Part shown: one piece after another, positions 47,301 to 50,300 of the stretch | How positions within the stretch are numbered: position 1 is the first letter of the stretch | How the letters are laid out: every line of letters begins with the position of its first letter | NCBI GenBank assembly: GCA_029582155.1 | Contig: CM055911.1 | Span: 50,777,419 to 50,841,418 of the forward strand | Origin: Panopea generosa | Lineage: Eukaryota; Mollusca; Bivalvia; Adapedonta; Hiatellidae | Direction of reading: 5' to 3' | Length of the DNA stretch: 64,000 bases | The notes under the pieces: generated by a model | Databases searched by the model: none | What the model was told of the DNA's origin: nothing | What the model saw: only the letters and a program-made list of their open reading frames with translations | Program-made: the position numbers and the translations under genes

Positions 47301-50300
47301 TATGTTTGCATCAGTTGTTGATATTTAGTTTTTCTTCTAGAGGTGACGTTTTACAAGGCTATGTATCTGCTGCTTTAACTGGGCTAAACAAACAGATGAA
47401 CTTCGTACTTTGGGGTCACGATTAAATAAAAATTATCTGTCTGTACATTGTTTAGAGGGATGGTCCTATCTATCCCACATTTGACTGATGAAATTGATAA
47501 ATTTTCATTTCTGATTTAAACACTGTTATATAAGAAGTGTATAATGATCCAAATTAATTAATTTATATTTTGAGCTAGGGTTAGTTAAAAGTGTATAAAG
47601 AGTATTCTTTTTTTTTTCATTCATTATTCGGTAAAAATAATTTGATTTGCAAGTTTCTGTTTTAAATTATATTGGTAATTGTGTTCCAGTTGAGGGGATT
47701 TTTTTTTTTGGGGGGGAAATAAGATGCTTGCATTTAATTTTCACTTTAAAGGGCAAATATTATGTGGGTAATTTCAATTTTAGAAGTTTTACCTTCTTTC
47801 TGAGATCCTTGTTATTCATATAATAGTTTTCTGTATTTTGGCAGTAGTATAGTGCATATAATATTGGCCACTCATGCCAGAGGTTGAAGGTTGGATCCCA
47901 AGCTCAACCAGATGCCTCTCAAAAAACAGCATTCAGTACTGGTTCTACCCAGGAAGGGGCCTCGAGACGGTTCAGATAAGCTTTATGCTTTCTTTGCAAT
48001 CAAACTTATATAGATTAGTACTGTATAAACTAAAATAAAACAAAATTGACATATCAATTGTATTGTTTTAATTAAGCATAGAAAAAGGGACAGTAATGCA
48101 GTTTATATGAAATTAAAAAATTGATATGCCAGATACATCCAGTATGGATTTACATAATATATTAAAGTATTAATCTATAGTCTTACAACTTTTTTGGTTA
48201 AAATAATAGGCTAGCGAGACAGAAAGCGAATGAGTAAGTAACTCGGGCACAGATATTGTCACGTAAACTCATCAGTTGTCCTCTTGTATTGATTCTGTGA
48301 AAATTGTTTTAAAAAAAAAAAAAGACAGTCGACTGTGGTATTGTCCATGACTTTTATGTTAAATGTGTCATAATCGTACAGTCGTTTTTCAAAATATTGT
48401 TTACATTACAGAAATAATTTCCTGCCATGCCATGCCAGAATTGTTGTTTGTTGTTGTATATTAATTCATTACTTTTGTTTTTTAATTATACAGCTTTTTT
48501 AGGAATCAGTAATGAGGATTTGTTAACTAAAACTAAAAATAAATTATTTCATAAAAAGTTGCTACAGCAGTTAAAAGTCATATAAAAAACCCAAGAAATA
48601 TAGTTTATTTTTAAACATTAACTATTTTATGGCGCTGTAAATGTAGGAACCATGCTGTTTACATTTTATTGGAAATTTGAACTAACTGCGGAAAATAGAA
48701 TTATAAGTTTCACGAAAACAGAAAATGTTTTGATGCATGTTAACAAATACTAACAAGTTGTTGATTATGATAGGTTGGCAAAAAAGCGAGCAAAAGAAGA
48801 GTAAGTAAAAATGTCGATGTTGTCATTTGAAAAAAATCAAAAAAAAAATCAGAAAGATATCCACTTAAAAAGAAATCCTATGTATACTATAATACGATAA
48901 TGTCTGATTATGTTTGATTTTTAAGTAATGTTCAAATTAAAGTGATTTATCGTAGATTAGTAAATCGTATCTAATAGCAGTTGAAACAGGTCTATGAAAT
49001 TATTAATTCTTTGCTCTTTTTTCTTAAAAGTCAGATGCTTTTATGGACTAATGTATTTAGTTGGAGAGAATCTTAAATTGAGAGGCTGGCAGCTTTGTGT
49101 ACTAAGTGATAAGAGTAAACTTGTTTATTTATAAAACTTAATATATAGCTGTATCATTTGGGACTGAAATCCTTATACTGTACCTGTATAATGAAAAATA
49201 TTAGTTTTATTTTGAATTGAAGGCATGAATTTCAATTGTCAAACCTAAAGATATATTGATTTTGAACACTGCTAAATCAAATCAGGTCTTCAAGAAACCA
49301 GGAGAAATTAATGCAAATTGAGTAAGTTGTGCATTTGTTGATATGTTGTTGTACGAAGTGTGCAATTGTGCATGCTTGATTGTATAACTATGTGCAATTT
49401 TTGCATTTTTTCTCCGCATCATTGTGCACACATTTTTCTAGAAAAATTTTATTAATCTGCAAGCTATTAGTTTCAAGTATATGATTAAGGTGAAACAGTG
49501 TCTTTATCTTTTGAAAAGATTTTTTTAGGAATATTTGCAGAATATAATATGTGAAGATACAAAATGTAAAGTCCACCACAAACAGCAAATGCTTTTCTTG
49601 TACCATTCTTTTTTTTTTTACTATTAGCTCTCCTATTACATTAAGATTATAATTATTCAAATGAAAGAAATCATGAAAACGTAAAGTCAGAAGCTGAATT
49701 TAATGGATATATGTTTATATGTTATGTATGGTAATATTTTCATGCACTGTATTTTTTTAATGTTTTGGGATGTTTATACCCCGAGTCACAGATGCTGATA
49801 TGTTGTGGTTCAGCTATACATTCTGTTACATATACAAAAACAAACATGCAAACTTTTGTGTTCTATTTATCACAAAGTTTGGTAAAGTTGTACTTTGTTT
49901 ATCAAATACCAAAAGACACTTCAGCATATATATATATTGAACGTTCACAGATTAACTCCTCCATTATCCCATATTTAGAATTAAATATTTCTATTAACAT
50001 TGATTCTATTTTAAATCGGTACCACAAAAACTTAAATACTTCAAAAAGCTTTAACAGATAAAAACCAGAATTTTACAGAAATACGTCAATATGAGAGCAT
50101 CATATTTTATTTATAAGTACACTGATGGAAATTTTATTATATATTTTCTAAGAAAATTGTTTGTCTTAATTTTTTTTATGAAAGACAAAGCATAATAGGC
50201 ATCCGTGCTCCTTGAAATCATTTTCTAGTTGATATTTCCCTGGCCTCAAATGAACACTTTCACTTGTAACGTGTATTTTTGGTCTCACTGTGAATAAAAA

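Follow-up and report, generated by a model that had tools for sequence, protein, structure and literature searches.

Three candidate microexons in one intron of a bivalve DNAH7 gene and their possible bearing on AAA4

Examination of a 64-kb stretch of Panopea generosa DNA (the whole stretch analysed, hereafter the window) reveals that one intron of an axonemal dynein heavy chain gene contains three short blocks, termed mA, mB and mC, any of which could be retained between the flanking exons without loss of the reading frame. In our judgement, made from the sequence, at least one of these blocks is probably a real, lineage-restricted cassette microexon. This assessment rests mainly on mB, which we are inclined to accept as a real cassette microexon in its own right; mA and mC are each doubtful as exons, and it appears unlikely that all three are real. 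The features concerned are the following:

47132..47250, + strand: DNAH7 exon e41, matched by the Dreissena protein, ending in MRQLD plus AG, with the donor CAG/gttggt of the AG//GUNNN type
47251..50918, + strand: host intron, phase 2, 3668 bp, with only three GTRAGT hexamers
48210..48233, + strand: candidate microexon mA, 24 nt, LARQKANE, donor TGA/gtaagt
48748..48754, + strand: TACTAAC, putative branch point of mB, whose final base lies 20 nt ahead of the first base of mB
48774..48800, + strand: candidate microexon mB, 27 nt, LAKKRAKEE, donor AGA/gtaagt, the best supported of the three
49286..49321, + strand: candidate microexon mC, 36 nt, encoding 12 residues, donor TGA/gtaagt, with a TGC 16 nt before the exon
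50919..51099, + strand: DNAH7 exon e42, matched by the Dreissena protein, its translation running from an opening stretch of 19 residues to WFQ

Each of the three blocks has the form AG/G...GA/gtaagt in phase 2-2, and their donors are the sole GTRAGT hexamers in the host intron. A preliminary description had given the coordinates of the blocks, their lengths of 24, 27 and 36 nt, the preceding AG, first G, final GA and gtaagt, and the insert peptides (as stretches of 17 and 12 residues), and all of these proved exact. Its account of an intron of about 3.7 kb and of a TACTAAC before mB, which is the only one in the intron, was likewise correct, as was the phase fit: all eight combinations of the blocks are open, adding 0, 8, 9, 12, 17, 20, 21 or 29 residues. 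When every block is skipped, the direct join of e41 to e42 yields the canonical sequence of 14 residues across the junction. The 5' ends of mA and mC are not fixed, as each has a second in-phase AG start, at 48219 in mA (leaving a block of 15 nt) and at 49295 in mC (leaving 27 nt).

The host gene lies on the + strand between about 5 and 63 kb of the window, with its 3' end beyond it. Joined into a 176-residue piece, e41, e42 and the exon after them match the bovine and human axoneme DNAH7 with 317.6 and 315.1 bits, as against at most 224.5 bits for the paralogues DNAH12 and DNAH3, and the best PDB matches, 9fqr_Xw and 8j07_g2, are both DNAH7. Hence the gene is DNAH7, as the preliminary description had named it, and is nearer to DNAH7 than to other dynein heavy chains. 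Among the proteins listed the closest is a DNAH7-like protein of Dreissena polymorpha (85.9% over 2775 columns, counting gaps), followed by those of Sinanodonta (80.2% over 2447 columns), Ylistrum (79.1%) and Crassostrea (78.6%). In a tblastn comparison residues 72-3390 of the Dreissena DNAH7 align collinearly with the window apart from a five-residue gap at 528-532, e41 and e42 being the 41st and 42nd matched blocks, and no match to residues 1-71 was found in the window. A stop interrupts five of these alignments; in four of them we read this as the alignment overrunning exon ends, the exception being 3351-3390. The first gene model, which was built de novo by dynamic programming and then checked against the Dreissena protein by tblastn, recovered e41 and e42 and none of the three blocks; it missed three exons (near 22822, 34730 and 36444) and held a doubtful 29-nt exon at 23674. 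The top-scoring block candidates, at 34850, belong to a real exon that this model had missed.

Several further elements were observed in the window. The host intron harbours a dispersed repeat, some 165 bp long (47856-48020); partial copies, 74-78% identical to it, lie at 34350-34516, at 43260-43359 (opposite strand) and at 63723-63848. The repeat contains ggttggatccc, which we take to resemble a tRNA-type B box, and is perhaps a SINE; no tRNA was found in the window by ARAGORN. A search of the host intron for structured RNA gave no Rfam match up to an E value of 0.1. The intron before exon 59418-59551 is largely made up of diverged tandem copies (58652-59446) of about 48 bp and also of 144 bp, which repeat the exon's own 3' splice site together with its first 30 or so nucleotides; the copy of the 3' splice site at 59370, if used, would add 16 residues in frame. 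Near the end of the window the - strand bears an open frame of 146 residues (62465-62902), presumably part of a retrotransposon reading frame, which had no Pfam match above the cut-off.

The foremost alternative, to which we accord an appreciable though minority likelihood, is that the blocks are chance pseudo-exons: three fortuitous gtaagt hexamers with open, in-phase blocks in an AT-rich intron of 3.7 kb, none of them spliced. In introns simulated from a third-order Markov model of the host intron, three GTRAGT-anchored, stop-free, phase-2 blocks of 12-60 nt arose in 71 of 8000 cases, and smaller runs gave 21 of 3000 with the host-intron statistics and 19 of 3000 with a second model based on the pooled introns. 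The control set of 44 exons and 43 introns, drawn from 21.4-61.3 kb only and including three exons with approximate ends, comprises 31775 bp of intron, or 8.7 times the host intron, so that the probability of a three-block set somewhere within it is at most about 6-8%, which is not negligible and favours pseudo-exons. Single open blocks are ordinary, since one occurs in some phase at two of the seven other internal GTRAGT on the + strand (51 and 60 nt) and at four of the six on the - strand. Three blocks of three in the right phase are unusual, moderately beyond chance and not decisive. Against pseudo-exons stands mB, with a TACTAAC at the right distance: any block with this motif 12-45 nt upstream appeared in only 4 of the 8000 simulated introns, and such a block together with a three-block set in none of the 8000. 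Thus mB with its branch-point motif is rarer by chance than the three-block set. Four TACTAAC occur on the + strand of the window, namely the one before mB, one at 26320 just before the constitutive exon at 26342, and two (9695 and 19904) that are not close before any modelled exon.

Splice-site weight matrices were built from 41 constitutive exons of the same gene. On these the acceptors of mA, mB and mC score 4.1, 5.5 and 4.8 (against 4.1-13.3, with a first quartile of 7.1, for the constitutive exons) and the donors 0.7, 6.0 and 1.1 (constitutive range 5.5-13.6), with the mA and mC donors falling below all 41 constitutive donors and that of mB near the minimum. The blocks keep the frame, as a cassette microexon would; their splice sites rank among the lowest constitutive ones or beneath them. 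The low donor scores stem from the GA before the cut, which is seen at none of the 47 modelled donors; all 11 modelled donors that lack a G at -1 have a G at +5, as do the blocks. Neither a general exon score, by which mB, mC and mA rank 6th, 44th and 67th of 621 phase-compatible blocks, nor the codon log-odds against introns, which are near zero (mA -1.8, mB +1.9, mC -0.7), singles out the three. The weak acceptors, GA-ending donors and neutral codon scores are all in keeping with pseudo-exons. The upstream donor of e41 had been called weak and taken as a sign of regulation; this we reject, given that CAG/gttggt scores 10.4, at the median of 10.2 for the 41 constitutive donors, e41 included.

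Homologues were sought among 5.8 billion proteins, a database of one representative per 90% cluster, which hides any isoform inside a cluster, using three queries of 2675, 205 and 718 residues that all carried the three inserts; a relative bearing an insert would thereby be spared the gap cost and should rank high. The matches listed were the best 120 of 1862, all 106 of 106 and the best 120 of 319 above threshold, respectively. Among these 346 cluster representatives both flanks of the junction could be read in 327, and none of them has the insert; conservation of the blocks in related species, which the preliminary description proposed as a check and which is usual for cassette microexons, though not required of them, is thus absent from the predicted proteins listed. 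With the longest query the net change in length at the junction is zero in all of the best 120 of 1862 (1886-4079 residues), bivalves such as Dreissena, Crassostrea, Ylistrum and Sinanodonta included. The 106 proteins matched by the 205-residue query divide into 79 with zero change, 17 with one flank only, six with changes of -5 to +2, and four that are longer. Two of these four (P0129 and P0132, with 17 and 18 additional residues) were rejected as insert carriers, their extra residues being hydrophobic and unlike each other, and they read to us like a retained short intron; the other two (P0221 and P0222, each +7) continue past the e41 exon into different sequence. In both P0129 and P0132 the residues across the intron position begin with K-L-V, as would suit a gtt(a/g)gt donor like that of e41 (47250-47256), and this unusual donor may be old. 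Among the best 120 of 319 matches to the 718-residue query, 38 show zero change, 2 one flank only, 74 are shorter by 1-6 residues and two have +1 or +2; P0277 and P0263 are longer nearby by 20 and 26 residues, as is P0318 by 19, all in other, distant dyneins, and P0260 of Mytilus lacks 18 residues at the junction.

Absence from the homologues listed (0 of 327) favours pseudo-exons. Together with the low-end splice sites it also agrees with low-level exonisation noise, in which one or more blocks would enter a few per cent of transcripts and serve no function, an explanation that we consider improbable and under which the conservative divergence of mA and mB described below would be unexpected. 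Automatic annotation often misses microexons. The absence of the insert from the best 120 of 1862 matches is compatible with a lineage-specific or minor isoform, each 90% cluster being represented by a single protein.

The peptides encoded by mA and mB both keep the pattern L-A-basic-x-basic-A. Over seven codons the two blocks differ at 9 of 21 bases and have a peptide score of 17; random change of equal amount preserves this score in only 1.3-1.5% of open outcomes (P 0.013-0.015). Shuffling of the peptides gives a P of 0.004. The DNA cores are no more alike than chance would allow (P 0.39), and no direct-repeat family of at least 16 nt joining mA and mB was found. In a local DNA alignment that spans about 120 bp (score 37.8) the donors line up but the acceptors are offset by 4 bases; two of the 542 windows scanned outscore it, those that cover mB coming 4th and 7th. 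The notion that the first two blocks are duplicates is thus no more than suggestive, with backing from their peptides, by both the shuffle and the test of conservative change, but not from their DNA cores, and duplication at the DNA level was rejected, the 120-bp alignment being suggestive at most. An old duplication is a possible origin of the pair. We did not accept mC as a duplicate of the end of e41, its DNA core P of 0.006 being one among 10 pairs tested and its peptide P being 0.05. The content of helix formers in mA, mB and mC is reached by 3%, 1% and 9%, respectively, of 98 AG..GT blocks of matching length from the gene's introns; this pool includes the three blocks themselves, and the measure was picked after the peptides had been seen. 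Peptide composition and the conservative divergence of mA and mB agree in arguing against pseudo-exons, each of them being modest or partly post hoc.

From dynein anatomy we place the insertion point ahead of strand beta-4, in the pre-sensor-I region of AAA4. An AlphaFold2 model of a related AAA4 fragment (P0162, 257 residues, 30 sequences, mean pLDDT 72.8) is best matched by 9fqr_Xw (DNAH7) at a TM of only 0.60 and an rmsd of 11.7, and because of this poor superposition only its local secondary structure was used. In residues 101-140, where the block mean pLDDT is 90-94, and the positions that follow, the model has a helix at 105-120, a loop at 121-131, a helix at 132-146 and a strand at 147-152. 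R120, which closes the first helix, directly precedes the insertion point. The site had been described as a linker within AAA4 near the stalk; its position at the end of a helix before a loop in AAA4 stands, but the nearness to the stalk carries no weight, since we place the start of the stalk helix about 140 residues later in the sequence. Charged helix formers inserted here would most simply lengthen the helix that ends at R120. The distant dynein P0318 has a longer stretch here (net +19).

In light of these observations we propose that the host intron carries at least one true optional cassette microexon, most likely mB, with mA possibly an old relative of it and mC possibly a third. The default product would be the skipped form, canonical DNAH7, and inclusion would add 8, 9 or 12 charged, helix-forming residues, or sums of these up to 29. 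We infer that such an insert would lengthen the pre-sensor-I helix of AAA4 or the loop that follows, and could thereby tune the contacts of AAA4 with its neighbours in the inner-arm dynein. The choice between skipping and inclusion might rest on the weak acceptors and NN//GURAG donors of the blocks, set against the AG//GUNNN donor of e41. As a whole, this explanation, at least one optional microexon tuning AAA4, is the best available, and we hold its truth to be evenly balanced. The fuller version, in which three duplicated or recruited cassette microexons give up to eight isoforms differing only in the length of a charged AAA4 helix, seems rather unlikely. Axonemal dyneins are usually thought to have diversified by gene duplication, with one heavy chain per position. 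If the proposal is true, splicing would set a dial on a ciliary motor, from 0 to 29 added residues, and a single inner arm could be made to differ among gill cilia, larval cilia and sperm with no need of a new gene. No report of microexons in an axonemal dynein appeared in the titles and abstract openings returned by a full-text search of open-access PMC, a collection that leaves most subscription papers outside, or in the available portions of PMC8352595 and PMC9351233.

PMC8797185 lists as marks of Drosophila eMIC exons a TGC and a CTAAC (CTAAY) near the 3' splice site, weak 5' splice sites, a long AG-exclusion zone and alternating UCUC tracts. That the blocks are neural microexons of this Srrm/eMIC programme, included in ciliated sensory neurons, is very improbable: mB has a CTAAC 24 nt before the exon, mC the TGC 16 nt before it, and the mA and mC donors are weak on the gene's own matrix, but an AG lies 18 nt upstream of mB, no TGC occurs within 80 nt of mA, TCTC is missing from the 50 nt preceding each block, and the block donors are perfect gtaagt on the intron side. 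The marks present are incomplete and differ from block to block.

The candidates nevertheless invite comparison with the Srrm234/eMIC cassette microexons of animals, which they resemble in being very short, frame-preserving, charged and placed at a loop, as well as in the CTAAC of mB and the TGC of mC. Those microexons occur in neuronal genes and have an AG-exclusion zone and a UCUC tract, whereas the present candidate blocks lie in an axonemal dynein and lack both. Compared with DNAH7 itself, the direct e41-e42 join gives the canonical protein, and the candidate inserts after QLDR are in none of the homologues listed. A further parallel is offered by the two kinds of 5' splice site distinguished in PMC11732430, AG//GUNNN sites that pair with U5 and NN//GURAG sites that pair with U6, of which annotated alternative pairs tend to hold one each. 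Exon e41 has a donor of the AG//GUNNN class and all three blocks have NN//GURAG donors, a contrast that agrees with this tendency and is a possible basis of the choice, though it is no sign of splicing itself. The pairs described there are alternative 5' sites, whereas the arrangement in the DNAH7 intron would be one of cassette exons in series.
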